A DNA stretch of 64,000 bases. Origin: Verrucomicrobiia bacterium DG1235 (GTDB taxonomy: Bacteria; Verrucomicrobiota; Verrucomicrobiia; Opitutales; Opitutaceae). Below are positions 13,935 through 50,195 of this stretch, one piece after another; position 1 is the stretch's first letter, and every line of letters begins with the position of its first letter. The translations under genes were made by a program, and so were the position numbers. The notes under the pieces are model-generated. The model searched no databases. It was not told the origin of the DNA and worked only from the letters and a program-made list of their open reading frames with translations. The DNA lies in contig DS990592.1 in NCBI GenBank assembly GCA_000155695.1, forward strand, positions 3,919,820 to 3,983,819, given 5' to 3'.

Positions 13935-14750
13935 ATGAAGCCCTTTGCCCCTGAAATCTCCTACCATCGAGGCCATAATGGCACGGCTCGTCATGAGCTG
14001 AAATATTTGGTGCCTGCCGATTGGGTGGATGATATACGTTGCTTCGCCCAGCCGTTTTGCAGGGCTGATGGGGAAGCGGCGGGCGATCCGCCGGAGTATC
14101 GCATCACGACTTTGCAGCTTGATACCTTGGACCATTCGCTGCATAGCGCGAAGGAGCGCGAGTTTCTGAATCGGTTTAAACTCAGGGTCCGGAGCTATGG
14201 CGAGATGGGCTCTGCTCCGGCATTTTTGGAGATCAAGCGTAAGCTGGAGGATCGCGTGGTGAAGTCGCGTTGTCGCTTGGAGCCTGGCGTTTTCGGGGTT
14301 GGTTTTTCCTTGGATAGTCCGGTGCTTGAGAGAGCTTCGGAGAGGGATCGCGACACGTATTGGGAATTTGTCCGGCTGGTGAGAGAGATGGATGCGCGGC
14401 CGAAGATGTTGATCCGTTATATCAGAGAGTCTTGGGTGGGGCATCGCTCTTCGAGCCAGCGCATCACTTTTGATCGCGCTTTGGAATACGCAGTGACGGA
14501 TCGCTGGAGTCTGGAGGCTCCGGTGGTCTGGAGACGGATGGATTCGGCGTTTGCGTTTAACGTTTCGTTTGCGCCGGTGATCTTGGAGCTGAAGTGTTCG
14601 GGCAGTCTGCCGGATTGGATGCAGCAGCTCGTCCGCTTTTTCAGCCTGAGCCGGAGAGGGATTTGCAAGTATTCGACGGCGGTTCGCTTGGAGTCGCTTT
14701 TTGAAGGGAACCGTTTTTCCGACGCTTCGGAGAACACGAACTACGGCTAG
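13935..14750 (+). CDS. VTC-domain (polyphosphate polymerase-like) protein
   Basis: ATG at 13935 is preferred over an upstream TTG at 13914, giving 271 residues, all VTC domain. The tunnel-lining basic residues of polyphosphate polymerases are visible in order: 'RHELKYLVP' near residue 17, 'RFKLRVRSYG' near 82, 'LEIKRKLEDRVVKSR' near 100, 'RITFDRAL' near 176, 'VILELKCSG' near 215 and 'KYSTAVRL' near 248. The yeast Vtc4 domain makes polyphosphate from ATP. There is no SPX domain and no membrane segment. It is the first gene of a tight operon with DUF4956, HlyD and CotH genes (gaps of 18, 8 and 2 bases), a linkage that ties it to a surface process. The bacterial product is not proven to be polyphosphate. 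Confidence 0.85.
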   Translation: MKPFAPEISYHRGHNGTARHELKYLVPADWVDDIRCFAQPFCRADGEAAGDPPEYRITTLQLDTLDHSLHSAKEREFLNRFKLRVRSYGEMGSAPAFLEIKRKLEDRVVKSRCRLEPGVFGVGFSLDSPVLERASERDRDTYWEFVRLVREMDARPKMLIRYIRESWVGHRSSSQRITFDRALEYAVTDRWSLEAPVVWRRMDSAFAFNVSFAPVILELKCSGSLPDWMQQLVRFFSLSRRGICKYSTAVRLESLFEGNRFSDASENTNYG

Positions 14751-14768
14751 AGTTTGAGATAGGAAAAT

Positions 14769-15452
14769 ATGGAATCATTCATTCATGGGCTTGGGGCTGC
14801 GCGATCGCTGGATCTTCTTCAAATACTGACGTCGCTTAGTGTCAGCCTTGTCCTGGGGGTTGTGCTGGCGAGCGCATATCGCTGGACGCATGTCGGGCCG
14901 AGCTATTCGCGAGCGTTTGTACAGACGGTGGTGTTGGCGAGCATTGTATCCACAATCATGATCATCACGGTAGGCAATAATCTGGCGAGAGGCTTGGGGA
15001 TTCTCGGGGCTCTGGCGATTGTGCGGTTTCGGACGCCGATACGAAATCCACGTGACATCATTTTTCTTTTCGCGAGTTTGGCGGTCGGAATTTCGTCGGG
15101 TTCGAGTCTCTACTTGGTAGCGGTGACGGGGACTTTCTTTTTCAGCCTGGCGTCTCTGTTTTTACACTGGTCTCCCTATTCCACGAAGAAGACGTTTACC
15201 GGGATGCTTCGTTTCTCCGCTCCGATGGAATCAAAGCTAGAATCTGAAGTAACGACGATCATGCGGGAGTTTACTAGTAACGTGGAAATCGTGGCGATAA
15301 GGGAGGCGGGACAGGGGAGCGTAGTCGAGTACGCTTATCAGGTTCGTTTGATCGATCCCGCGATAAAGGCTGATTTGATCCAAGCTCTCAAAAAGGTGAG
15401 TGGACTTGGGGATATCAACTTGGTCATGCAACGTGAAACCGTGGAGATATAG
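14769..15452 (+). CDS. DUF4956 membrane protein
   Basis: The protein has 227 residues. Four hydrophobic segments lie in the first 150 residues, including the family hallmark 'GLGILGALAIVRFRTPIRNPRDIIFLFASLAVGIS' at about residues 76-112. A soluble C-terminal domain of about 75 residues follows ('VEIVAIREAGQGSVVEYAYQVRLIDPAIKADLIQALKKVSG'), ferredoxin-like in pattern. The function is unknown. DUF4956 proteins occur repeatedly beside VTC and CotH genes in bacteria (established association, from memory), so it probably forms a membrane partner for the VTC enzyme or for export of its product. Confidence 0.85.
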   Translation: MESFIHGLGAARSLDLLQILTSLSVSLVLGVVLASAYRWTHVGPSYSRAFVQTVVLASIVSTIMIITVGNNLARGLGILGALAIVRFRTPIRNPRDIIFLFASLAVGISSGSSLYLVAVTGTFFFSLASLFLHWSPYSTKKTFTGMLRFSAPMESKLESEVTTIMREFTSNVEIVAIREAGQGSVVEYAYQVRLIDPAIKADLIQALKKVSGLGDINLVMQRETVEI

Positions 15453-15460
15453 CGATTACG

Positions 15461-16612
15461 ATGTCGACACCAGTTCTGCCAGCCTCGGTTCGCCGTAAAG
15501 TGTTTTTCTATAGGATTTTTTCCTATTGGCCTTTTGTTGTTTGGGCTTCGGTTGCCTGCCTCGCGGTATGGGGATATTTGAATACGCAGAATCAGCATCG
15601 ATATGTCGGCCGTGTGGCGCTCGATGAGTTGATCGTGGCACCGCTCGAGGATGCTCGGGTCGAGGCGGTATTCCTGGAAGTAGGGCAGCGGGTTTCTGCG
15701 AATGATCTATTGGCGCAATTGGACACGAGCGCTATCGAGTCTGAAATAGACGCTCTGGTAATTGACATTAAGCAGGAACATCGGGAGCGGGAACGGCGCT
15801 ATATCGAAGCACGGCATCGACTTTTGGAACAGCGACAGAAGCTTGTTCTTGCGCAGAAGGAAGATGCTGCTCGGCTCAAGGTTCTCGAGGAGGAGTACGC
15901 GAATCTGGAAAAGGTCTATGATCGGAAGCTGATTAGTCAGACCTTGTATTTTGACACTTTAGAGAAGGTGGAGTCGCTACGTTCGAGCATCGAGTCCTAC
16001 CCGGGGTTTTTGACTGAAGTCGAGGAGGAGCTTGAGCGTCTTGAATCCAGCATCTCGGTATGGGATATAGGAATGGGTGAGGCTTTGGTGGATGACGATG
16101 AGCGTATTCGTTTTTTGAATCGTAGAAAGGGCGAGCTCACGCTTCGGGCTTCTGATGAGGCGATCGTGAGTGAGATTCTGGTACGTCCAGGGGAAGTGGT
16201 ATTGTCGGGTGATCCGATCTTGAAACTAGTCCTAGACGGTCCTTCGCGCGTAGTTGGGTTCATTCCCGAATCTGAAAGCCAGTATCCAAGTTTAGGTGAC
16301 GTGATGTACGTGAGCTCGTCTTCCACTGGTGGCAAGTGGCTGCAGGCGAAAGTGACGGGCTTGGCTCCAAATGTGGTCATGGTTCCAGATCAGGTAAGTC
16401 CGCTGCCCGGCAAGATGGTATCGGGACGGTACTGTTATCTAGAGCTTCCAGAAGCCATCCAACTAGTTGGGGGAGAAACGGCCTTGATTGCGGACAAGCC
16501 ACCTGGATTTGGGAGTTTTCTAAAACATTTTAAGGACGTGGATACTTTAAGCGTGTCCGAGTCTAAGGATCCGTTTCCGCTAAAGACTGAGGGAGCGGCG
16601 AGTACTTTCTAA
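15461..16612 (+). CDS. HlyD-family membrane fusion protein
   Basis: The protein has 383 residues. It has a short cytoplasmic N-terminus, one membrane anchor at about 20-42 ('YWPFVVWASVACLAVWGYL'), and then a biotinyl-lipoyl-like half domain ('VGRVALDELIVAPLEDARVEAVFLEVGQRVSANDLLAQLD'). A long coiled coil (about 105-200) follows, then the second lipoyl half ('LRASDEAIVSEILVRPGEVVLSGDPILKLV') and a beta-barrel domain. It should span the periplasm as the adaptor of an export machine, but no ABC or RND pump gene lies in the operon. It is placed between the DUF4956 gene (8-base gap) and the CotH gene (2-base gap), which suggests that DUF4956 supplies the inner-membrane part or that the pump is elsewhere. 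Confidence 0.85.
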   Translation: MSTPVLPASVRRKVFFYRIFSYWPFVVWASVACLAVWGYLNTQNQHRYVGRVALDELIVAPLEDARVEAVFLEVGQRVSANDLLAQLDTSAIESEIDALVIDIKQEHRERERRYIEARHRLLEQRQKLVLAQKEDAARLKVLEEEYANLEKVYDRKLISQTLYFDTLEKVESLRSSIESYPGFLTEVEEELERLESSISVWDIGMGEALVDDDERIRFLNRRKGELTLRASDEAIVSEILVRPGEVVLSGDPILKLVLDGPSRVVGFIPESESQYPSLGDVMYVSSSSTGGKWLQAKVTGLAPNVVMVPDQVSPLPGKMVSGRYCYLELPEAIQLVGGETALIADKPPGFGSFLKHFKDVDTLSVSESKDPFPLKTEGAASTF

Positions 16613-16614
16613 GT

Positions 16615-19600
16615 TTGAAGAACAGGCTTACATTTTTCTGGTTTTTACTTGTTTGTGTATCCTCTCTGGCAGGACAGGTAAGGATCAATGAGTTCATGGC
16701 GGCACCTTCGGAGCGTGTCTTGAATTGGAGTGAGGAAGGGGCGGCTATAATTGGTATTGCGGTGCCCTGGTGGACCTTGGAATTCGATGACTCCCTATGG
16801 TGGGAAGCGAAGAGCCCGATCGGCTATGGCTATGCCTCGATTGAAACGCGAATACGGGAAGACCTACCTGAATCGAAAGCAGGGTTCTATGTTCGCAAGG
16901 TTTTCGAGTTGACGGAAGAGCAGGCTGGAAGCGGAGAGGATTTGTTACTGAAAATCGGATACGATGATGGTGTAGTCGTCTATCTAAACGACGTTGAGGT
17001 GATGCGCCGTAATCTGGGTCCTTCGGGCTTGCCGGTGTTTCATGACCTAGGCTCTTTTAACGAGCATGCTCGTTCGGATATCGAGGAGCTGAATCTGGGT
17101 CAAGCATCGGAGCTGCTTCGCCCAGGAAGCAATGTAGTTGCGATTCAGGTACACGATTGGTGGGACGACAACGAGACGATGTTTCTCGATGCCTCGTTGA
17201 GTTTGCAAGGAGCTTCCGATGGAGCCTTTATCGAACGCGGTTCTGACTGGCTTTTGTTTCCGGGGCGTATTGAGCCTTCGGGTGGCGTTTATAACGAGGA
17301 GTTTCTTCTTGCGGGATTGAGCGAATTTAGACCTCTATGGACCCGCTCTGATTTTGATGATAGCCAATGGCAGCAGGCATCGGGTCCGCTTGGCTATGAC
17401 GCGGGTGATGAATACCAGCTGGGACGAAATTTGTATGATGAAATGTACGGGCAAGCGGTATCGCTTTATATGCGAGCGAGTTTCGAGCTCACGCAAGAGC
17501 AGCTTGATTCCTTGGAGAGTTTGGAGCTGACGTATGATTTCGACGATGCGTTTGTAGCGTATCTCAATGGGAAGGAGCTCGTTCGTGAGAACTTAGGCAG
17601 CGAGGGGGTCTCTATCGCTTACGATGAGGTTTCCGATCGGGACCACGGGGCATCGGATGACGGAGGCGATGGAGTGGACCGCCGGGAAACCGTGATTTTT
17701 ACGGCAGAGGAACTGGCCCTAAGAGTTGGAGAGAATGTTCTTGCTGGGCAGGTTCATAACGCCCGTCTTTTTTCCTCCGATTTGATTTTGAGTTTGGATC
17801 TTAGGGGGGGCACAGATTTGGAGGACCGCGTTTTGATCGCTTCAAGTGGGAATTGGAGGTATCTCGTAGGAACGCAGGAGGTGCCAGTTCGCGATGAAAT
17901 GGTAATCGCGAAAGGGGAGGAACCGGATTTCGTGGACTGGATCGAACTTTTTAATGAATCGGATTCGGCGGTTGATCTATCTGGCTGGACGTTGTCGGAT
18001 GATCCTGCGGATCCGGACATGTGGGTGTTTCCGCAGTTAACGCTTGCCGCTGGCGAGTACCTGGTAATGCTTGCTACTGGTAGGGATATTTCGGATACTA
18101 GTGGTTCTCGTTTGCACACGAATTTTAGACTCGCTAGTGGAGGCGAATCGCTTGGCCTGTACAGTCCTGAAGGCGTGTTTGTATCGGGATTTACTGATGC
18201 TTATCCAAAGCAGAGCGCTTACCATTCCTATGGCTATCTAGAGGAATTGGATGCCTTTCGCTATCAACCATTGGCGACTCCAGGGTATGCAAATGATTCG
18301 GTCGGGTTAGTCGAAAAATTGGCGAAGCCGACGTTTAGCTTTGAAGGGGGCCATTATGACCAGCACTTGGCTGTAGAGATCGCAAGCGAGCAAACGGGGG
18401 TGGAAATTCGCTATACGTTAGATGGCAGTGATCCAACTGGAGAGGGGGCATTATTGTATTCAGGTCCTCTTGACACTTCCTCGCTCGCCACCACGTCGAG
18501 AAACGGAGAAGGGAGTTTTCTTCTCCTAAGAGCGGTCGCGTTGTTAGATGGCTACATTGACTCGGACTCTCGATCAGCAACCTATCTTTTTAACCAGAAT
18601 GAGGTTCTGAAATCGCTACCTTCTGTGGCGTTAACGGGAGATCCAGATCGCGCCTTGTTTGGGCCTTGGGGAACTGCGGCGGTTCGGGGGAGATTTCTCG
18701 ATTATCCTTATACGGATTGGTACGACTTGTACTATTCACCTTCGCACCACAGTCATTATAGTATGGCGATCTTGGCGGGGCGCCCAACTGAGCGTGAGAT
18801 GTCACTGGAGGTTTTCACGCAAGATGAGCGGGGAAATGCGCAAAGCAATGTAGGGGCTCGTATCTCAGCGAGTGGCTTTTCGAAGCCTCGAGTAGATTTC
18901 CGTACTATTGAGAATGGTACAGGCTTATCTAACGTGAATAAGCCATCGTTTAATATTTTCTGGCGCGACGAAATAGAGAAGAAGAGCTTGGACTTTCCCC
19001 TGTTTCCATCGTCCCGTGTGGACCGATTCGAGAGTTTACGGCTGCGATCAGGAAAGAACGACGATATTAATCCATTTATTCGGGATGAACTGTGCCGGCG
19101 TATGTTTCTTGAGATGGGACAAGTCGGCAGTGTAGGTATACTGGCGACAGCGTGGCTAAATGGGCATTATGCGGGCTACTATAATTTGACCGAACGTTTG
19201 CGTGATGGCTTTTTCAAGGAGTGGCATCGAGATGCGGGACCGTGGTTCGTAAAGCAAGTTGGGAGTGTGGCGTCCGGGGATGAGTCTAAATACAATGCAT
19301 TCCGGGACTTTCTATCTCGGACAGATTTTTCGGTTGAGGAAAATTATAGAGACCTTGAGAGACAGGTGGATTTGGTAAATATTGCTGATTACGCTATAGT
19401 AAATGCCTTTGCCGCCATGTGGGATTGGCCGGAGAATAATTATGTTTTAGCCAAGTCCTTCAGCGAACAAGGAAAGTATCGCCTTTATATGTGGGATGCT
19501 GAAGGAAGTTTTGGGCTGTATGGAAACAAGTCGATTCATTGGGACACGATTGCCAGCGACTTGCTTGCGGAGCCGGAGGATTGGGATAATGATATCTCTT

Positions 19601-21987
19601 TGATTTTTAAGGCTCTTTATCAAAATGATGATTTCAGGGTGTTGTTTAGGGATCGAATACAAGAGCACTTTTTTGACGATGGAGCGATGACACGCAGTCG
19701 TTGGGATTCTCATTATAACGAACTACGTGACCAGATTGCTCCCTTGATTGAATACGGAACTGGCGAGCCGTTTTATGCGGATTGGTACACGAATTGGATG
19801 AACCAACGTTATCCGATCTTTCTCGATCAACTGAAGGATCATGACCTTTGGTCGGATCTGGCCTCTCCAAATGTAGATCTTGCTGAAGGCAATGTGCCTG
19901 TTGGCTCAATGGTAACGCTCTCGGGTTCTGTGGAAAATGAAACGGTTTACTATACGATAGATGGGACTGATCCGCGGGCCTATGGGGGGGAGCCGAGGGG
20001 AGAGGTCTATGAGGATCCGATTCTCATTGACCGATCCTTGCGGTTGAAGGCGAGAGGCTTGCAGGATGGAGAGTGGAGTCCTCTAAGGGAGGTCGAATAC
20101 CTAACGTCGGATGTTCCTAGTCTAGAGATAACTGAGATTATGTATCATCCTGTGGATACAGAATTGGCAGAAGGGTCGGAGCTCGAGTTCATTGAAATAT
20201 ATAATAATGGTGCTCACCTTGTTCTGTTAGATGGATTGGAGTTTTCTGATGGGATTGATTTTCGCTTTTCCGAGGAATCTGTCCTCGATGCGGGTGACTA
20301 TCTCGTGCTTGTGTCCAATGCCGTGGCATTTTCAGAGCAATATCCGAACGTAGAAGTGTTTGGCGAGTATGGGGGGCAGCTTAGCAATGGAGGGGAGTCC
20401 ATTGAATTGCTGGCTCGGGATGGAGCTCGGGTTTTTCGCGCGACATTCGACGATAGCGATTTATGGCCGCAATCGGCGGATGGCCTTGGATTTTCGCTGG
20501 TTCCGACGGTGCCGGAGACTGGAACCATGGAAGACGCGAGTCACTGGATTGCTAGCGCTCGTGTTTGGGGGTCGCCCGGCGAGGCTGATCCAGCGCGTTC
20601 TTCTGAAATCGTTCTTATCAACGAGATTTTAACGCATACTGATTTTCCGCAAATCGATATGGTCGAGTTGTATAATCCAGGTGATTCGCAGATTGATATA
20701 TCAGGTTGGCTATTGTCGGATGATTTTGATACTCCTGCAAAATACGTTTTTCCGGAGGGCAGTGTCGTTCCAGCGGGTGGATTCCTGCTCGTCGATGAGT
20801 CAGATTTTGGACCGGAGGCGATTGGTGAAAGCGGATTTAGGCTGAATAGTCACGGGGAATCGATTTGGATTTTCTCGGCGGATTCCGAGGGGCGCTTGAG
20901 TGGGCATTTGCATGGAGTGGAGTATCCCGCCTCTGAAAATGGAGTGTCATTTAGTCGTTTCACTTTGTCGGATTTTTCTGAGGTTTGGTTTCCTTCGCAG
21001 TCTAATAGTTTTGGGGCAGCTTCCGCTTCGCCTCGCGTGCCAGATGTTATCATCTCCGAGGTTCACTATGCTCCGGATTTGGATGTTTCCGAATTCGTCG
21101 AGATCATGAATCGCTCTGATAATGAGGTCTTGTTCTACGATGTCGCTTATCCTCAGAACACTTGGAGGCTAGAGGGGATCGGTTTTGAGTTTCCGCCGGG
21201 GGCTCGACTGGCTCCCGGGCAGGTCGGGCTGGTTGTTGAGATTGAGCCGGAGATGTTTCGGAGTCGATATGAGATTCCAGATGTAGTTGAAGTTTGGGGA
21301 CCGTTCGATGGGCGGTTGAGGAATGAAGGCGAGTATCTCGCGCTCAAGAAACCGGACCTGCCGGATGTAGATGGCGATGGTGAGTTGTTCATCCCATATA
21401 CATTGGTTGACGCTTTGGACTATTTGCCGCGTCATCCATGGCCTGATCAGTCTGATAACTATGGGAAAAGTATTGCCCGTTTAAACGCCTCTTCCTTTGG
21501 GATGGAACCGAGCAACTGGACTTCAAGCGAAATTAAAGGGGGGACACCAGGTTTTTTAAGTCCGCTGAGTTGGGAGTTCTGGCAATTTATAGTGTTTTCT
21601 TTTGAGGAGCGGGATTTGGGAGAGATCACCAGTGTGTCCTATGACATAGACGGGGATAGGGTCGCAAATCTTCTTGAATATGCGTTCGGGTACGATCCGA
21701 GAGTGAGGGATTCGAAGTCGCCAATTCGCTATCGAGTGATTGAGCAAGAAGGCGAGCGTTTCCATGCCTTGGAGCTTACGACTAGGCGCGAGGCGAGTGA
21801 CGTACGTTGGATACCTCAGCTATCGCGTGATTTGGAGAGCTGGGAAGATGTAGCAGATACGGTTGTTCCGTTTGGGGCTGTTCGAACGAATCCAGATGGC
21901 TCGCTTACTCGTGTATTCAGAGATACGATACAAATGGCTGAAGGTGGTTCGAGATTCCTTCGCTTGAGGGTTGAGCTCGTTCGCTGA
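16615..21987 (+). CDS. Giant secreted CotH-kinase / lamin-tail-domain protein
   Basis: A TTG start at 16615, two bases after the HlyD stop, gives 1790 residues with a signal peptide (MKNRLTFFWFLLVCVSSLAG). Order of modules: a truncated lamin-tail start and two jelly-roll-like regions (about 21-410), a lamin-tail domain (about 413-510), a chitobiase C-terminal-like Ig fold (572-650), the CotH region (about 665-1080), a second chitobiase-like fold (about 1093-1165), and three more lamin-tail domains (about 1166-1280, 1332-1430, 1475-1585). The C-terminus carries an EF-hand-like 'DIDGDRVANLLEYAFG'. In the CotH part, N-N-Y at 941-943 and W-D-A-E-G-S-F-G around 960-967 match the atypical secretory kinase motifs, with E in place of the usual second D of the metal site. 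CotH kinases phosphorylate secreted proteins. Confidence 0.85.
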   Translation: MKNRLTFFWFLLVCVSSLAGQVRINEFMAAPSERVLNWSEEGAAIIGIAVPWWTLEFDDSLWWEAKSPIGYGYASIETRIREDLPESKAGFYVRKVFELTEEQAGSGEDLLLKIGYDDGVVVYLNDVEVMRRNLGPSGLPVFHDLGSFNEHARSDIEELNLGQASELLRPGSNVVAIQVHDWWDDNETMFLDASLSLQGASDGAFIERGSDWLLFPGRIEPSGGVYNEEFLLAGLSEFRPLWTRSDFDDSQWQQASGPLGYDAGDEYQLGRNLYDEMYGQAVSLYMRASFELTQEQLDSLESLELTYDFDDAFVAYLNGKELVRENLGSEGVSIAYDEVSDRDHGASDDGGDGVDRRETVIFTAEELALRVGENVLAGQVHNARLFSSDLILSLDLRGGTDLEDRVLIASSGNWRYLVGTQEVPVRDEMVIAKGEEPDFVDWIELFNESDSAVDLSGWTLSDDPADPDMWVFPQLTLAAGEYLVMLATGRDISDTSGSRLHTNFRLASGGESLGLYSPEGVFVSGFTDAYPKQSAYHSYGYLEELDAFRYQPLATPGYANDSVGLVEKLAKPTFSFEGGHYDQHLAVEIASEQTGVEIRYTLDGSDPTGEGALLYSGPLDTSSLATTSRNGEGSFLLLRAVALLDGYIDSDSRSATYLFNQNEVLKSLPSVALTGDPDRALFGPWGTAAVRGRFLDYPYTDWYDLYYSPSHHSHYSMAILAGRPTEREMSLEVFTQDERGNAQSNVGARISASGFSKPRVDFRTIENGTGLSNVNKPSFNIFWRDEIEKKSLDFPLFPSSRVDRFESLRLRSGKNDDINPFIRDELCRRMFLEMGQVGSVGILATAWLNGHYAGYYNLTERLRDGFFKEWHRDAGPWFVKQVGSVASGDESKYNAFRDFLSRTDFSVEENYRDLERQVDLVNIADYAIVNAFAAMWDWPENNYVLAKSFSEQGKYRLYMWDAEGSFGLYGNKSIHWDTIASDLLAEPEDWDNDISLIFKALYQNDDFRVLFRDRIQEHFFDDGAMTRSRWDSHYNELRDQIAPLIEYGTGEPFYADWYTNWMNQRYPIFLDQLKDHDLWSDLASPNVDLAEGNVPVGSMVTLSGSVENETVYYTIDGTDPRAYGGEPRGEVYEDPILIDRSLRLKARGLQDGEWSPLREVEYLTSDVPSLEITEIMYHPVDTELAEGSELEFIEIYNNGAHLVLLDGLEFSDGIDFRFSEESVLDAGDYLVLVSNAVAFSEQYPNVEVFGEYGGQLSNGGESIELLARDGARVFRATFDDSDLWPQSADGLGFSLVPTVPETGTMEDASHWIASARVWGSPGEADPARSSEIVLINEILTHTDFPQIDMVELYNPGDSQIDISGWLLSDDFDTPAKYVFPEGSVVPAGGFLLVDESDFGPEAIGESGFRLNSHGESIWIFSADSEGRLSGHLHGVEYPASENGVSFSRFTLSDFSEVWFPSQSNSFGAASASPRVPDVIISEVHYAPDLDVSEFVEIMNRSDNEVLFYDVAYPQNTWRLEGIGFEFPPGARLAPGQVGLVVEIEPEMFRSRYEIPDVVEVWGPFDGRLRNEGEYLALKKPDLPDVDGDGELFIPYTLVDALDYLPRHPWPDQSDNYGKSIARLNASSFGMEPSNWTSSEIKGGTPGFLSPLSWEFWQFIVFSFEERDLGEITSVSYDIDGDRVANLLEYAFGYDPRVRDSKSPIRYRVIEQEGERFHALELTTRREASDVRWIPQLSRDLESWEDVADTVVPFGAVRTNPDGSLTRVFRDTIQMAEGGSRFLRLRVELVR

Positions 21988-32114: not shown

Positions 32115-32192
32115 GCCGCGTTCGTCTAGCCAGGCCTAGGACACATGGTTTTCATCCATGCGACAGGGGTTCGAATCCCCTACGCGGTACCA
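32115..32192 (+). tRNA. tRNA-Glu (TTC), copy 1
   Basis: A full cloverleaf can be drawn: acceptor GCCGCGT/ACGCGGT, D arm GTCTAG...AGGAC, anticodon stem CATGG/CCATG with loop TTTTCAT (anticodon TTC), T arm AGGGG-TTCGAAT-CCCCT, and encoded CCA at 32190-32192. The D and T arms match the known bacterial tRNA-Glu pattern. Confidence 0.95.
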
Positions 32193-32351: not shown

Positions 32352-32429
32352 GTCCCGTTCGTCTAGCCAGGTTTAGGACACTTGGATTTCATCCAAGAGA
32401 CAGAGGTTCGAATCCTTTACGGGACGCCA
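32352..32429 (+). tRNA. tRNA-Glu (TTC), copy 2
   Basis: Acceptor GTCCCGT/ACGGGAC, anticodon stem CTTGG/CCAAG with loop ATTTCAT (anticodon TTC), T arm AGAGG-TTCGAAT-CCTTT with one GT pair, discriminator G and encoded CCA. Acceptor and anticodon stems differ by compensating changes from copy 1, while the D arm is nearly the same. Position 32 is A rather than the usual pyrimidine. Confidence 0.93.
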
Positions 32430-43557: not shown

Positions 43558-46500
43558 TTACTTCGCGGAAACTCCTCGTTTGTAATTGGGTCGGGTATTC
43601 CAAACGAAGCCGAGTGATTCGAGCTTTTGTATCATATCCTCGGTTAGCTTTCCCAGCTTGTAGTCTCCTCGCCGGTGGTTGACCCATTTTCCGAGTTGTT
43701 TGTCTTCCTTCCAGTTTTGCGGAACGTTGCAATGGCCGCGCTCTTCTTTGAAGGCACGAAGTGCCTCGAACATTTCATCCCATGATCTAGTCGGAGGTTT
43801 TATTTCCCATTCGAAGCCGATTTCATCCAATAGAGGGATGCGGTTCTCCATAACCGGCATCGCTTTCTTTCGGTATTGCCTTTGGCTGTGTGCCCACCTC
43901 CCAAGTTCGCTTTTTTGAGGTACTCGTGAGTGCCCATTCTTTTGGATAAACTCTTTCATCTCATCGAAGTACTGGAGCCACTTATTGCCAACAGGATCCC
44001 AGTCGACTTGAAGCTCATTCATTAGGTCCTCCTGTGCTTTGCTAAGTCGCCCGTTTTTCCTCTCAACTCTTTGGCTCGATAGCCACATAGCGAGGCTTTT
44101 GCCTTTGGCTGTTGTTCTGGGAACCGAAGTATGGCCGTTGGCTTGGTAAAAAATCCTCAGCTCTTCGTAGCGTTCATTCCAGGATGGGGGAGGCTCGTTG
44201 CTCGGTAGCACTTGCCATTCGAAATTAATGTTATCGAGTCTTGCCCGTCTTTCGTCTTTTAGGCTCCCGTTTCTGGCAGATTGCCGTTGGGTTCGCACCC
44301 AGCGGGCGAGTTCAGGGTCGCGTTCCCAATTTGCAGGTACCACACAATTCTCAAATTCCTCCTTATAGTCTTGGAGTTTTGAATACATCTCATCCCATTT
44401 GTCGCTGTAAGCATCCTTCTGGATTGTGCTCAGTGAACCAAGCAGACTGCCTTGTTGTTCTGTAAGCTCTCTTTCGCTTTTTTTCTTCAGTTGATATTTC
44501 AACCACCGCACCAATGCGCCTTTTCCTGCGTTGTTTAGCTCGGCAAATGAGCAACTGCCGTGTGCTGTGTTCCAGTTGAGCAGTTCGATGAACATAGCAT
44601 TCCACTCGATCTCCTTTGCTATGCTCTGGTCGTTTGACCACGGGAAATCGATTTCTTCCAACAAGGCGATTTTGTCTTCGGTAAGTGTGCCTTCGCTGTG
44701 TTTCTTTCTCTGATAGCTTATCCAAGAGGAAAGCTGTCTGTCGGTCCCTTGAGAGACCTCGAAGTGTTGGTTTTCGTCAAAGTAATCTGAGAGTTTCGAA
44801 AGCATCGTGAGCCAAGCATGATCAATTTGTGGTGTTTCATTTTCCCATTGAAACCCGATATCGTTAAGCTTCCGCTCACGTGACGACTGCAACTTCCCTC
44901 TCTTTTTCAGGCGACGTTGAGTGGTAGCCCAGTTTCGAATTTTCTCGTCTTCGATCTTAGTGATAGATGGTAGGCTTCCCTCAGGGGTAGTGTACGAAAG
45001 GAGTTCTTTATACATTTCATTCCATTGGGCGTCATATGGGTCCCACTCAATTCCCGCATTCTCTAAGAGCGTCTGACGGTGAGAGGGGAGCTTGTTTTCG
45101 CGAAATTGCTTCCTCTGATACCGTATCCATAAATTGAATTCGTTTGGGTCTACGCTGTTGTCTTTAAACTTCAGGAACTGGATCTGCCACAAGGCTTCGT
45201 TCGTGTCCCAGTGGAATCCTATGGCGTCTAACATTGAACGATGGTCGTAATTCAGTCGCCGACCTCTTTGTGCCTTTCTGACATTGGACACCCATGATTC
45301 GAGTACTTCGTCTTTGTAGTCGATAAACGAGTACAGGTAATTTCCGCGTTCTCTATGTGCTGAGTTGAGTTTTGAGTAGCAGTCATCCCAGCTCCCTAAT
45401 ATTTCAGCAGGAGTCTTTCCTGTTGTGCGGTTCTTAGGCTTTGAGGCCTTTCTGATTTCTTCTAGTTCTAATATTTGTTGCTTTCGATTTTCTGAAATAC
45501 TGTTTTCGCGGATTTTCTCTCTTTGTCGCCTTAGCCAATCTTTTTGTGCCTGGGTTAGTTTTCCGACTTCATCAGGGTTCGTTAGTAGGTCGAGGATTTC
45601 TAGGTATCGGTCCTCCCATCCCGCATCTATCCGATTGTTTCGGCTATCCCATTCGAATCCGAAGTTGTCGAGAGTTGACTGGACCGCGAAATCGATGCTG
45701 CCGTCTCTGTTTTTTTGTCGTTGGCTGCGTAGCCAAGCCAGGGTGGCAGAGTTTTCTTTGTTGTTCTCGAGGCGTAAATGACCGTTCTCTTTGTGGAAAT
45801 CTGTAAGCTTCTTCAGGTGGAGCTCGTTTGCTTCTTCACTCGCGGTATTTCGTAGATCCCATTCCAAACCGATCTGTTCGAGTGCGTCTGTTTTCTCCTG
45901 TGATAGAATACCTTTCCTTTTATGGTATCGTTGTCTCGCTACCCACTGTCCCAGGAATTGGTTTTCCTCCCACTTCGCTGGAACGCGTGTATCGCCGAAC
46001 CTTTCTTTATATGCGACCAATTCAGCGAACCGATTTTCCCAAGTGCCGGTAGGAATAGTCCATTCGAATCCTATATTCTCTAGAAGGTCGATTCGATCCT
46101 GAGGCATGCTGGCGTTTCTTCTGTCTTTTCTTTGCCCTCCTACCCACTTTGCTAGTTGAGGATTCTCCTTCCAAGTTTGAGAGACTCTGCAATTTCCAAA
46201 TCGAGCTTTGTAGTCGACCAGTTCGGAGTATCGCTCATTCCATTTTTCGCCTCGTGGATCCCAGTTGAACCCAATCTCATCAAGCAGTCTTATTTTTTCT
46301 GCTTCGAGTGTTCCTTTGTTGCGGTAGACTCGTTGATAAACAACCCAGGTAGAAAATCCACTTACTTTGTCGTAGCGTGCAGGAACGTTGCAGTTCCCGT
46401 GTTCTTTTTTGTACGCGATTAGTTGGCCGTAACGCTTGAACCACGACTCTCCGACTGTTCGTACGCATTCCGCAGTTATAGCCTTCTGAAGAGAATCCAG

Positions 46501-48435
46501 ATCAATCTCGTTGGCTAGGACCTCGATCTTTTCTTTGAGGGATGAAGGATCGAAATGGCCGGTTTCACCTTCATCTCGTTTCAGCATTCGGATGGTATGC
46601 TCGAGAAGGTCGTCGTGTTCTTGAAGCTGGTTGAGGACATTCCACACGTTTTGAAAGTCGCTGTTTTGTACGGACTGCTCGAAAGTCTCTCCTTTCGCTC
46701 GCTCCAGAAATACTGGAATCAGTACGTATCCAATTTCTTTGCCTTCCGATTTCCTCATCGCCCGACCAGTCGCCTGGACGATATCAACCACACTTTTCTT
46801 GGGTGAGAGGAACGCGACCATATCGACAGCTGGAACATCGACACCTTCTGTCAGGCATCGAGCGTTTGAGAGGATCGCTTTGTCGGCTTCAGCGAAATCA
46901 ATGAGTAGCCTGCTTCTTTGAGCTGTCCTCATCTTTCCGTTGATGTGCATGCAACGGAACTCTGGCAGATGGGTGGCAATGCTCTTGTTCCCGTTTCCTG
47001 TGAACACATCCGCAGACTTCACAGTCGAGTGAAACGAGAAGATCTTTCTAACACCGTACTTATCGACGGCTGCCTTTAGTGCCAGCTGATGGGCAACCTG
47101 TTTTGCTCGTACGGAGTCCCCATCGACCATGACGATTCCTTGCCTGAGTATCTCTCGGTCGACGTCATCCTGAGTTACTACTGAAATGGCGACTTTGTAT
47201 CCAGTGATCACTGGCGGATCCATCGATACAGCCTTGCTGAACGATAGTTTGTGGACAATGGGACCGTACGTATCCGTGTCATCCATAGAAAAGACCTTTT
47301 TAGCGTCTCCATGCTTGTCTCGATTGGATACGTCGTAGTGTCGAGGCGTCGCAGTGAAGAATACCCTCTTGTCGATCGGGATATTGTTGTCGGATAGGCC
47401 CGTTGAGAATTTTGCTCCAGAACGCCCCGCGGTTTTATGGGCTTCGTCGAATATGGCGACATCGAAGCTAAACCCGCTTGGTAGGGAATCCATGACTACG
47501 TGGCTGGATTGGTACGTGGAGAAAATGAATTTTGTGCTGTCTCTGTCAGATTCGATGAACTGTCTAACCTGGCTAGAATGAAGAGTGACAGGGAAATCCA
47601 GCTCCGTTGGTAATACAACGAGTCCATCGGATTCTGAAACGCTCTTATCGGAGCAGACACAAACGTATGAAAAGTCATTCAGAGTGGTTTCTTTGCACCA
47701 CTCATGGAGTGTTTGCCTTATCAGCGCGAGAGATGGGCAGAGCACTAGAACGTACTTCGGCTTTAGACGTTCGACTGTCCAAAGGGCAATGAGCGTCTTT
47801 CCTGATCCACAAGCCATGAGAGCCGTCCCACGACTGTTAGTTCGCAAGCCGCCCAGAATGTCAGATATTGCCTCTTTCTGATATTCGTGTGGAGTCTTTG
47901 TTTTATAAGGTTTTTGTGTACCCGAAATCCAATTACTTATTGTTTGAAGATCTGCTTGAGTTAGCTCTTCAAGATCAGTTCCGCGAATGAAAGAGGCTCC
48001 AGATCTTTGCTCAGCTGTATCTGAGATTTTGTCACAATTTGTGAATACTCGCTTGAATCCGACAGAATCTGAAAGTCCGTAGAACGTTGATAGCCCTGAC
48101 CATGTTAGAGAAGGACGACCACTTCTGAATTTGACCTGGTAAGAGATGCGATGTCCTGCTTTGTCTTCGAAGAGTCCGTCTATGCCTTTGTCTTTCGACG
48201 GAAGTTTAAGTTCTTCCAGTATGCGGTAGGGGATCGCGTTGTATGGCCAGACGTTTTCTGCTTGTTGAGTCTTCTGGGTGGCGAAATAAGCTTCTGCAAA
48301 TACTTCGAACGCGTCTCCTCTTACTTGTGGGGTCGGTAGATTTTCTACTTTGCGCTCAAATCCACGAAATGAATCTACTGCCTCCAATAGTTTGAGATCG
48401 CTGAATCGTTGTGACCATGGGTGTTTTGAGGACAT
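43558..48435 (-). CDS. Nuclease-helicase with about 14 helicase-associated (HA) repeats
   Basis: The protein has 1625 residues. The N-terminus (about 45-150) looks like an Mrr/PD-(D/E)xK nuclease ('DKGIDGLFEDKAGHRISYQVKFR', giving D...Q-x-K). A superfamily 2 helicase follows: Walker A 'ACGSGKT' with Lys 213, DEAH box at 329-332, 'FTATP', and the second RecA lobe with 'ARCLTEGVDVPAVDMVAFLSPKKSVVDIVQATGRAMRK'. From about 660 to 1615 the protein consists of HA repeats of about 68 residues ('W...Y..L..Y....G.C.VP......LG.WV..QR...R.G.L...R...L...GF.W'). The first three and last four are well kept and several in the middle are degenerate. HA repeats are thought to bind DNA. A defence or mobile-element role is plausible. 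Base composition is AT-richer than the flanks. Confidence 0.85.
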   Translation of the reverse strand: MSSKHPWSQRFSDLKLLEAVDSFRGFERKVENLPTPQVRGDAFEVFAEAYFATQKTQQAENVWPYNAIPYRILEELKLPSKDKGIDGLFEDKAGHRISYQVKFRSGRPSLTWSGLSTFYGLSDSVGFKRVFTNCDKISDTAEQRSGASFIRGTDLEELTQADLQTISNWISGTQKPYKTKTPHEYQKEAISDILGGLRTNSRGTALMACGSGKTLIALWTVERLKPKYVLVLCPSLALIRQTLHEWCKETTLNDFSYVCVCSDKSVSESDGLVVLPTELDFPVTLHSSQVRQFIESDRDSTKFIFSTYQSSHVVMDSLPSGFSFDVAIFDEAHKTAGRSGAKFSTGLSDNNIPIDKRVFFTATPRHYDVSNRDKHGDAKKVFSMDDTDTYGPIVHKLSFSKAVSMDPPVITGYKVAISVVTQDDVDREILRQGIVMVDGDSVRAKQVAHQLALKAAVDKYGVRKIFSFHSTVKSADVFTGNGNKSIATHLPEFRCMHINGKMRTAQRSRLLIDFAEADKAILSNARCLTEGVDVPAVDMVAFLSPKKSVVDIVQATGRAMRKSEGKEIGYVLIPVFLERAKGETFEQSVQNSDFQNVWNVLNQLQEHDDLLEHTIRMLKRDEGETGHFDPSSLKEKIEVLANEIDLDSLQKAITAECVRTVGESWFKRYGQLIAYKKEHGNCNVPARYDKVSGFSTWVVYQRVYRNKGTLEAEKIRLLDEIGFNWDPRGEKWNERYSELVDYKARFGNCRVSQTWKENPQLAKWVGGQRKDRRNASMPQDRIDLLENIGFEWTIPTGTWENRFAELVAYKERFGDTRVPAKWEENQFLGQWVARQRYHKRKGILSQEKTDALEQIGLEWDLRNTASEEANELHLKKLTDFHKENGHLRLENNKENSATLAWLRSQRQKNRDGSIDFAVQSTLDNFGFEWDSRNNRIDAGWEDRYLEILDLLTNPDEVGKLTQAQKDWLRRQREKIRENSISENRKQQILELEEIRKASKPKNRTTGKTPAEILGSWDDCYSKLNSAHRERGNYLYSFIDYKDEVLESWVSNVRKAQRGRRLNYDHRSMLDAIGFHWDTNEALWQIQFLKFKDNSVDPNEFNLWIRYQRKQFRENKLPSHRQTLLENAGIEWDPYDAQWNEMYKELLSYTTPEGSLPSITKIEDEKIRNWATTQRRLKKRGKLQSSRERKLNDIGFQWENETPQIDHAWLTMLSKLSDYFDENQHFEVSQGTDRQLSSWISYQRKKHSEGTLTEDKIALLEEIDFPWSNDQSIAKEIEWNAMFIELLNWNTAHGSCSFAELNNAGKGALVRWLKYQLKKKSERELTEQQGSLLGSLSTIQKDAYSDKWDEMYSKLQDYKEEFENCVVPANWERDPELARWVRTQRQSARNGSLKDERRARLDNINFEWQVLPSNEPPPSWNERYEELRIFYQANGHTSVPRTTAKGKSLAMWLSSQRVERKNGRLSKAQEDLMNELQVDWDPVGNKWLQYFDEMKEFIQKNGHSRVPQKSELGRWAHSQRQYRKKAMPVMENRIPLLDEIGFEWEIKPPTRSWDEMFEALRAFKEERGHCNVPQNWKEDKQLGKWVNHRRGDYKLGKLTEDMIQKLESLGFVWNTRPNYKRGVSAK

Positions 48436-48706
48436 TGGGATTGGAAGGGAGGATAACTAGATCTACAGCAGTTAGGAGAGGGGTTCTAAGCCTAGATACT
48501 TAATCGTTAGAGAATGGTGAAGGAAAATTTATCTTACTTCATGATCTAGGACAGTAGGTGTCCTATTCTCTAGGTTAATTTGGTTCTGTGTCAGCCTACA
48601 TGTGTAGAGCGGCTAGCCCAATGAACCTTTAGAATTGGGCGATGTAAAACGGGTCAGGCCGTAATGTTTTAATGAGTTGGTTTTATGGAACGCTAAGAAT
48701 TCGTGG
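48436..48706. other. AT-rich gap upstream of the helicase gene
   Basis: About 270 bases expected to hold the helicase promoter on the minus strand. A perfect 6-bp hairpin, TAGGAC-AGTAGGT-GTCCTA, lies at 48547-48565. No gene was seen. Confidence 0.4.
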
Positions 48707-49104
48707 TTAGAAATCTTCTTTTACTTTTTTGGCGATTTCGAGATTGGCGGCTTTCATGGGGTCGACGTTTTCTGTATCGGGATTCTCTCGTTCGTCGATC
48801 AGTCCGTAGCGGCGGGCTTTGTTGCGTTGGTAGGCGCCGCAGAGATGGAAGCCGATGCAACCGGGGTTTTGGAAAAGGCTATGAAGTGTATCCGCGTACC
48901 AATGACCATCGTTGGGGGTGAACTCTCCTGGTTGGGTTTGCCACTTGATCTTGGCGGAGTCGGCGAGGAGAACGGGCTCGCCGGTTTTCTTGTGCCAGTC
49001 GTCTAGGTTTTTGATCGGATCTCTGAAATCCTGGAAGGAGAGAACGTCGACGTAGGGAAGGGCGGCGTTCACCACTTCCGTTGCGATAGGTTGAGATTTC
49101 TTGC
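48707..49104 (-). pseudogene. 3' fragment of a glycoside hydrolase-like gene (copy A)
   Basis: An open frame ends at 48707. The readable part starts after an in-frame TAA near 49105, so the 5' part of the gene is missing; an ATG at 49075 would give 122 residues. The text 'LPYVDVLSFQDFRDPIKNLDDWHKKTGEPVLLADSAK...HWYADTLHSLFQNPGCIGFHLCGAYQRNKARRYGLIDERENP' has the look of the last strands of a TIM-barrel (clan GH-A) glycosidase, including the late 'P-V-L-L-A-D' strand. The family is not assigned. Its last 93 bases of homology recur downstream as copy B. It is probably not functional. Confidence 0.7.
48732..48824. repeat. 93-bp direct repeat, copy A
   Basis: Identical to 50573-50665 at 91 of 93 positions. 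It covers the 3' coding end of the broken glycoside hydrolase gene. The two copies are in direct orientation 1841 bases apart and enclose the second Fic gene. Confidence 0.9.
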
Positions 49105-49118
49105 TTTAGGAACACGCC

Positions 49119-50195
49119 CTAGCGTGTGAGCAATGTGCAGAGGTCTTGATTGATGTAAAAGTTGGTTCGGCCTATCTTTACCTTTTTCACGATGCCGTAT
49201 TCGTCTAGTTGTGACAGGTACTTCATGGCGGTAGGTCGCGAAACGCTGAGGTCGCGCTCGACAAACTCTATCTTAGTGTAAGGGTGTCGGAAGAGGTTGT
49301 TGAGCAAGTCTTGGCTGTAGAGTTTAGGGAGTTGGGTTCGGAGACGAGACTTTGTCGATGCCATCAACTCTCTAATGCCTTTGACTTGAGCGAGGGTTTC
49401 TCTGGCCGTGCTCTCGACTGCTTTTAGCATGTAGAGCACCCAGTCCTCCCAATCTGCTTTGTCGCGAGCCGATTGGAGGAGTTGGTAGTAGTCTGCTTTG
49501 TTTCTAACGATATAGCGACTTAGGTAGAGCACGGGTAAATCTAGCAAGTTGTGCAATGCTAGAAAGAGAAGGTTTAGAATTCTGCCGGTCCGACCGTTTC
49601 CGTCGTAGAATGGATGGATGCTTTCGAATTGGTGATGGAGCAGGGCCATCCGTATGAGCGGGTCGATCTGGGTTTCGTCATCCTCAAGGTGGAAATATTC
49701 GAGGAGATTTGCCATGAGCCTTTCGATCTCGTCTCTATCTTGAGGAGGTTCGTAGACGACTGCCCCCGTTAGTTGATTTTTCAATACAGTTCCGGCAACA
49801 GAACGGAGCCCCACTCGACTGTCGAGCAGGGTGTTTTGGATAGCCAATACGTCATTCAGTCGGAGAAACTGTTTTTTGCGGATACGGTCGAAACCAGTTT
49901 TCAGGGCCTTTGAGTAGTGATGGACTTCCCTTGCGGCTACGGATGGGTATCGGGCGGATTCACTATCTCCTTGGTAGAGTTCGTCCTGCGTGGTGATGAT
50001 ATTTTCGATCTCGGACGAATCTTTGGCTTCCTGCAGAGCAAGTGTGTCGATGAGGATGCTCTCGTTTGGTATGGTGCCCGCAGCTCCTTTTAGTTCCGCG
50101 ATTTGACGGTGAGAACGAGCGAGCTGCCGCAGAACTTTTGCGGTCTCCAGTTCCTTCTGGCTCAGAAAGGGCAGTTTTTCCAGTTTGAATCCCAT
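49119..50195 (-). CDS. Fic family protein, second paralogue
   Basis: The protein has 358 residues. The inhibitory motif S-S-E-I-E-N ([S/T]xxxE[G/N]) lies near residues 60-65, and the catalytic motif HPFYDGNGRTGR starts at 194. The core hairpin 'VLKNQLTGAVVYEPPQDRDEIERLMANLLEY' precedes it. The C-terminus (about 300-358: 'IEFVERDLSVSRPTAMKYLSQLDEYGIVKKVKIGRTNFYIN') is a winged helix. This is the common self-inhibited AMP-transferase layout, with DNA-binding potential. It is only distantly similar to the first Fic protein at 5632-6735. It sits between two copies of a broken glycosidase 3' end, so it may have arrived by insertion or recombination. Boxes upstream suggest autoregulation. Confidence 0.92.
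   Translation of the reverse strand: MGFKLEKLPFLSQKELETAKVLRQLARSHRQIAELKGAAGTIPNESILIDTLALQEAKDSSEIENIITTQDELYQGDSESARYPSVAAREVHHYSKALKTGFDRIRKKQFLRLNDVLAIQNTLLDSRVGLRSVAGTVLKNQLTGAVVYEPPQDRDEIERLMANLLEYFHLEDDETQIDPLIRMALLHHQFESIHPFYDGNGRTGRILNLLFLALHNLLDLPVLYLSRYIVRNKADYYQLLQSARDKADWEDWVLYMLKAVESTARETLAQVKGIRELMASTKSRLRTQLPKLYSQDLLNNLFRHPYTKIEFVERDLSVSRPTAMKYLSQLDEYGIVKKVKIGRTNFYINQDLCTLLTR

Follow-up and report, generated by a model that had tools for sequence, protein, structure and literature searches.

What might a polymerase-like protein, a small membrane protein, a periplasmic adaptor and a very large CotH protein do together, when their genes follow one another with hardly a base between them? 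This question is raised by a four-gene operon within a stretch of 64,000 nucleotides of Verrucomicrobiia bacterium DG1235 (contig DS990592.1, positions 3,919,820 to 3,983,819; hereafter, the window), whose genome (G000) comprises 5.78 Mb. Our comparative analysis revealed a real and widespread system, the diderm variant of an already known VTC-DUF4956-CotH module, and its novelty is the recurring presence of a HlyD adaptor and a TolC-family outer membrane channel (OEP), not the large CotH protein. Tentatively, we read the four genes as the larger part of a dedicated route that would take the VTC product through the cell envelope, a reading that we hold to be possible rather than probable. The genes are as follows:

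13935..14750, plus strand: VTC-domain protein of 271 residues, a putative cytoplasmic polyphosphate polymerase (Pfam PF09359; ATG at 13935)
14769..15452, plus strand: DUF4956 membrane protein of 227 residues, with a helix bundle (transmembrane by eye) and a C-terminal ACT-like domain, MgtC-like (Pfam PF16316)
15461..16612, plus strand: HlyD/EmrA-type periplasmic adaptor of 383 residues (Pfam PF16576, PF13437)
16615..21987, plus strand: large CotH kinase-like protein of 1790 residues with lamin-tail domains (LTDs) and a TTG start (Pfam PF08757, PF00932 in four stretches, PF13290 in two)

The coordinates of the open reading frames and their Pfam domains agree with the initial annotation, which had described four plus-strand genes separated by 18, 8 and 2 bases. 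NCBIfam gave no match for the VTC, DUF4956 and CotH proteins of the window and only matches below the cut-off for HlyD, and promoter and terminator patterns were no more frequent than in shuffled sequence.

Recurrence of the adaptor and the outer membrane channel

Three overlapping samples of loci were compared: 17 from order-level relatives, 80 from a DUF4956 similarity scan, and 20 from a phylum sample picked by VTC alone. Among scorable loci, HlyD lay within 3 kb of DUF4956 in 75/77 of the scan, a share biased upward by a HlyD-type DUF4956 query, in 9/15 of the relatives, and in 12/18 of the phylum sample, which is the fairer one. This neighborhood survey rejects a chance or isolated insertion of HlyD, which the initial annotation had named as the outcome that would undo its reading. 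Of 90 places confirmed in the scan, the best 80 were retained, and they span nine groups (Verrucomicrobiota, Kiritimatiellota, Lentisphaerota, Planctomycetota, Sumerlaeota, Fibrobacter, Bdellovibrionota, Desulfobacterales, and Polyangium). The samples are not independent, as they share loci (L036=L028, L100=L026, L081=L128, L083=L125, L090=L142, L091=L143); of the 26 phylum genomes with VTC, 20 were used, G000, G013, G026, G054, and G056 being already covered, and G182 and the second copies of G145 and G155 being left out. Outside the HlyD counts stand L033 and L035 (relatives) and L124 and L136 (phylum sample), with no DUF4956 in the stretch, and L058, L075, and L102 (scan), which were too short.

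Moreover, an OEP gene followed HlyD within 4.5 kb in 42/64 scan loci, 4/9 relatives, and 7/11 phylum-sample loci, counting only those HlyD loci whose downstream sequence extends for 2.7 kb or more. Four neighbors served as seeds of the OEP profile, three above the Pfam cut-off and one below, and 48 OEP-like open reading frames of 380-660 residues were reduced to 40 by removal of near-copies and to 39 by dropping L080, which lies on the other strand. Of these, 33 matched PF02321 at E<=0.001, and their profile retrieved SilC, CusC, OprM, and TolC. In Pfam, no OEP match was obtained for the OEP-like neighbor of L085 or for the genes in OEP position of L107 and L115, and the gene in that position of L105 fell just under the cut-off. 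Some distant loci have another order, with DUF4956, HlyD, and OEP preceding VTC, which lies on the same strand in L108 and on the opposite strand in L112 and L113; the OEP of L112 reached 86.5 bits in Pfam.

When 1159 genes from 98 loci were clustered, DUF4956 was present in 93 loci, VTC in 91, HlyD in 84, OEP in 39 plus 4, and CotH/LTD proteins in 36, the next family reaching 16; here overlapping reading frames led the gene picker to miss DUF4956 in L112-L114 and to misplace HlyD in L111, while the other locus counts were made at the level of open reading frames. Among the 17 other clusters found in at least four loci, which include signaling and metabolic genes among others, two had no match at all and one, in 5 loci, encodes an ABC ATPase; no RND or MFS pump was detected among clusters present in at least 4 of the 98 loci, one example per cluster being scanned. 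Since no other widely linked pump family appeared, what recurs is the combination of a polymerase with a membrane protein, an adaptor, an outer membrane channel, and a surface protein.

Outside these samples, HlyD and OEP were missing from 6/6 Gram-positive loci carrying VTC and DUF4956 (Planococcus, Pseudobutyrivibrio, Acetoanaerobium, Nonomuraea, Paenibacillus, and Enterococcus; plasmid collection), a small sample searched with profiles over 12-15 kb each, and four of the six have CotH. In Hymenobacter, a diderm, DUF4956 is followed by a gene annotated as TolC family, which the OEP profile did not detect, and profiles found neither VTC nor HlyD at that locus; a Sinorhizobium locus has DUF4956 alone.

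The adaptor of the window is recognized by HlyD_D23 (3e-7, 30.4 bits, just over the cut-off of 30) and HlyD_3 (2.3e-6). Its structural model (predicted local distance difference test, pLDDT, 90.3) has an N-terminal helix at residues 23-42, transmembrane by eye, a lipoyl-type domain, and a hairpin formed by residues 90-154 and 160-204, and the closest folds belong to EmrA of EmrAB-TolC (1.4e-18). Likewise, a profile of 60 adaptors had EmrA as its top match in the PDB (4tko, 2.5e-30). Thus, the lipoyl and alpha-hairpin architecture of tripartite efflux and type 1 secretion adaptors is present, and relatives encode a SilC/CusC/TolC-like channel together with it. The difference from EmrAB-TolC and other tripartite or type 1 systems, for which ABC, RND, and MFS are the named transporter classes (PMC8277102), is that the inner membrane partner would be DUF4956. 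None of those three transporter classes was found by Pfam among the four genes of the window. Separately, in some Verrucomicrobiales loci where no OEP was found (L051, L053, L076, L077), a protein of 143-156 residues overlaps the end of HlyD; that of L053 has a DPBB_1 domain (Pfam), which we take to be RlpA-like.

The VTC protein as a putative polyphosphate polymerase

The VTC protein of the window matches PF09359 at 4.2e-29 (102.2 bits vs. a cut-off of 23). A phmmer search with this protein alone reached no related solved structure, and a family profile was needed: built from 16 VTC proteins, that of the window and those of 15 relatives, it retrieved yeast Vtc4 at 6.4e-27. In the printed alignment, read by eye, R84 and R86 align with R264 and R266 of Vtc4, and E218 with E426, with a single constant numbering offset. 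K245 aligns with the lysine that we take to be K458 of Vtc4. Across 59 aligned rows R80, R84, R86, E99, K101, K110, R112, R164, R176, D180, E218, K220, and K245 are invariant. The initial annotation had pointed to loss of the metal-binding glutamate or of the tunnel lysines as the weak point of its proposal, and these residues are in place. The triphosphate tunnel domain and the equivalents of R264, R266, and E426, the three positions at which Vtc4 was mutated to inactivate it in the relevant part of the yeast study (PMC9911596), are thus both present in this protein.

The likeness to the yeast VTC complex (Vtc1/3/4) lies in this homologous polymerase domain, whereas the 271-residue protein of the window is a VTC domain only by Pfam, with no SPX domain, its membrane part would be DUF4956 instead of the Vtc transmembrane bundle, and its suspected target lies outside the cell. 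As described in that part of the yeast work, the polymerase is coupled to a transmembrane channel whose pore is lined by basic residues (PMC9911596).

CotH proteins and their link to VTC

The CotH domain of the window matches PF08757 (5.9e-17, 62.6 bits vs. a cut-off of 23.8), and a profile of 22 CotH domains from these loci retrieved Bacillus cereus CotH (5jd9) at 2.6e-39, a relation to a solved structure that phmmer with the window region alone did not reach. In the window, D961, the presumably metal-binding aspartate of the (W/H)D motif, is kept, and 20/22 rows have an aspartate there. Pfam identified the four lamin-tail (PF00932) and two chitobiase-like (CHB_HEX_C_1, PF13290) stretches previously described in the 1790-residue protein, together with two of Fn3_assoc, and by eye its N-terminus resembles a Sec signal peptide. 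The accompanying claim that such a protein is new did not hold, because related loci also encode CotH proteins with LTDs, some of which have chitobiase-like domains as well.

VTC and CotH co-occur closely. Among 57 relatives, 17 have both, none VTC only, one CotH only (G034), and 39 neither (Fisher p 1.3e-13), and among 154 phylum genomes the figures are 24, 2, 7, and 121 (p 1e-19), p values that ignore kinship among genomes and are hence overstated. In the genus of the window, the same 4/8 genomes have both. CotH is frequently not adjoining VTC, and in some genomes a single VTC stands against 9-13 CotH matches (a few being pieces of one gene), a pattern that would fit one VTC unit serving many surface proteins. 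LTD or CotH open reading frames lay within 6 kb of DUF4956 in 25/80 scan loci, 12/15 relatives, and 6/18 phylum-sample loci, the relatives including L019, whose CotH label (24 bits) was not confirmed by Pfam.

In this context, HlyD and OEP could instead move CotH/LTD proteins from the periplasm to the surface, with VTC-DUF4956 only serving the kinase or the phosphate balance. The proximity counts just given agree with this explanation, as does an LTD gene that precedes VTC in three relatives of the same genus, but of 40 scan loci that extend 6 kb to each side, 24 have neither CotH nor LTD in that range, no protein-export ATPase recurs widely, and CotH seems not to need HlyD, since 5/6 HlyD-less phylum-sample loci keep CotH close to VTC-DUF4956; we therefore consider it unlikely. 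The same 5/6 loci suggest, for the export route that we prefer, two designs, one of delivery into the periplasm and one of delivery outside.

As to gene arrangement, the LTD-only proteins of those three relatives (L027, 5287-7242; L028, 12286-14214; L031, 6060-8018) have 642-652 residues and are encoded directly upstream of VTC on the same strand, and no such gene was seen upstream of VTC in the window. Two CotH genes flank the core in L099 and in the Polyangium loci L111-L113, in the latter on opposite strands.

DUF4956 as the proposed inner membrane partner

DUF4956 adjoins VTC in 75/80 scan loci (VTC was not found in the other 5) and in all phylum-sample (18/18) and order-level (15/15) loci having DUF4956. 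The protein of the window matches PF16316 at 1.2e-11, and its AlphaFold2 model (pLDDT 84.7) consists of a helix bundle and, by fold search, a C-terminal ACT/ferredoxin-like domain. R86, R88, G107, and G111 are invariant in 59 rows, and the two arginines sit at the end of a predicted helix in the membrane part. Because it stands beside VTC in nearly all loci and has R86 and R88 at that helix end, DUF4956 would, by analogy, be the natural counterpart of the yeast Vtc transmembrane channel.

A different role for the protein has to be weighed here, namely that of a phosphate sensing or homeostasis module, in which DUF4956 would be MgtC-like and ACT-regulated, VTC would consume excess ATP or phosphate, and HlyD and OEP would serve an unlinked pump. 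Its resemblance to MgtC is consistent with this: PF02308 matches 23/59 DUF4956 rows at E<=0.01, and the C-terminal domain of MgtC (2lqj) appeared at rank 16 (E 2.9e-3) in the fold search for the ACT-like domain, although the window protein itself, at 21.4 bits, stays under the MgtC cut-off of 31.4. A role in phosphate metabolism was also proposed by the Streptococcus intermedius authors in the relevant part of their report (PMC12345266). Nevertheless, this explanation accounts neither for the recurrence of HlyD and OEP beside DUF4956 nor for the close link of VTC with CotH, and we judge it improbable.

In a tree of 55 chosen DUF4956 rows, linkage with HlyD needs 4 changes, which could correspond to one large multi-phylum HlyD clade, a separate 6-row clade, and two losses (L091, L097); the deeper joins are unsafe owing to long branches. 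Apart from these loci, a far stronger DUF4956 match (161 bits) was observed in G002 at C11:943916-944419, on a different contig from the only VTC match of that genome (C7), and may indicate a DUF4956 subfamily unlinked to VTC; a similar strong match (184 bits) at a contig start in G036 might adjoin a VTC gene that is truncated by a contig end.

Relation to pel and other described loci

CotH, polyphosphate polymerase, and DUF4956 have been described as accessory genes beside pel in Gram-positive clusters, in the parts of two reports that treat them (PMC7112168; PMC12345266). In the second, the corresponding passages describe a membrane protein with MgtC-like transmembrane and intracellular ACT domains, without using the name DUF4956, and a secreted CotH, and state that the three-gene arrangement was not found outside the Pel locus. 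Here, four genomes without PelG have the VTC-DUF4956-CotH arrangement (L024, L025, L026, L034), and PelG (PF16933), the one pel gene searched, was absent from 18/18 genomes, that of the window included. Consequently, a pel link was rejected in this group, and the operon does not qualify as a Pel accessory module by PelG; the three families are the same as in the Gram-positive accounts, whereas here PelG is lacking and HlyD and, in many relatives, OEP are added. Similarly, VTC-domain genes adjoin CotH in NELoc-2 of Clostridium perfringens, as here, but this is a monoderm, and the part of the report describing that locus mentions neither HlyD nor OEP (PMC2879425). Among the matches listed in a search of the open literature, which leaves subscription journals and preprints outside its coverage, no paper describes a VTC-DUF4956-HlyD-OEP operon.

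It is very doubtful that VTC transfers phosphate to a polysaccharide or protein of the surface, or works as a triphosphatase, with the conduit exporting a modified product instead of free polyphosphate, given that, against two Gram-positive loci adjoining glycosyltransferase genes and the published loci adjoining pel in the parts of the reports cited (PMC7112168; PMC12345266), VTC keeps the three Vtc4 catalytic residues, no polysaccharide family stands among the identified clusters of at least four loci, and PelG is absent from all 18 genomes.

The proposed export route

The gene set, with the matching channel of relatives, suggests an unrecognized machine exporting a phosphate polymer. VTC would build polyphosphate from ATP at the cytoplasmic face, and the MgtC-like DUF4956 would be the inner membrane partner passing the chain across, in the way that the Vtc transmembrane helices do at the yeast vacuole. 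Through the periplasm, the polymer could then be taken by the EmrA-like HlyD to a channel of the TolC family, whose gene is a neighbor in many relatives; the genome of the window presumably borrows one. Outside the cell, CotH/LTD surface proteins might use the polymer as a phosphate donor or bind it. An adaptor and a channel fit this route because in diderms the product would still meet the periplasm and the outer membrane. What the analysis establishes is the gene content, its conservation, the catalytic residues, the fold predictions for DUF4956 and HlyD, the recurrence of OEP, the absence of any further widely linked pump, and the co-occurrence with CotH; polyphosphate as the product, each step of transport, and surface use of the polymer are inferred, and we regard export by VTC-DUF4956-HlyD-OEP as plausible.

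Several observations weigh against this route. The four-gene operon of the window contains no OEP gene, and the top OEP match in its genome, in a genome-wide profile search, scored 115 bits vs. 274-289 for the linked OEPs of G015, G002, and G004; a third of the HlyD scan loci (22/64) have no OEP inside 4.5 kb. HlyD itself is missing from diderm loci (6/15 relatives and 6/18 of the phylum sample), and VTC-DUF4956-CotH loci without it occur. For DUF4956 no role in transport is known, and it lacks an ATPase. Its fold search hit only the soluble domain, and neither sequence nor fold searches matched its membrane part, which shows nothing either way. The genome of the window has PPK2 at 4 places, so that other polyphosphate routes may exist and VTC was rejected as the sole one, while PPK1 gave no match. 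The link of VTC with CotH is loosened by the overstated Fisher values, by the scan loci without CotH or LTD nearby, and, among 14 control genomes, by Bacteroides ihuae, with VTC and DUF4956 without CotH, and Bacillus subtilis, with CotH without VTC. Finally, in S. intermedius, deletion of the DUF4956-type or the CotH gene altered Pel level and aggregation, but for the polyphosphate polymerase deletion the part of the study dealing with it reports no aggregation change (PMC12345266).

The pathway first suggested by the initial annotation, export through DUF4956 and HlyD, therefore stands in part: it is circumstantially favored by recurring HlyD, an OEP often next to it, no widely recurring pump, and the co-occurrence of CotH with VTC, and it is opposed by the unlinked OEP of the window, the HlyD-less loci, and the S. 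intermedius deletion.

Other features of the window

At 43558-48435 (minus strand) a helicase-like protein of 1625 residues is encoded, with many repeated C-terminal units by eye and a PADLOC match to REase_MTase_IIG (2.7e-88, residues 39-636). Near it, in a stretch of low guanine-cytosine content, lies a SoFic-type Fic protein (49119-50195, minus strand; 6.4e-114), and the region 43558-50195 is likely a defense or mobile island. Two tRNA-Glu genes, both with anticodon TTC, are located at 32115-32192 and 32352-32429, about 160 bases apart.

Implications

In its furthest form, VTC-DUF4956-HlyD-OEP would form a tripartite exporter of a new class, driven by polymerization and membrane potential in place of an ABC, RND, or MFS pump, that exports polyphosphate from diderms as a donor for ATP-deprived surface CotH kinases, a reading that we consider rather unlikely. 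As we frame it, the system bears on how bacteria could place polyphosphate extracellularly and on which donor is used by an extracytoplasmic kinase without ATP, and, if true, the export route would add an inner membrane class to tripartite systems.

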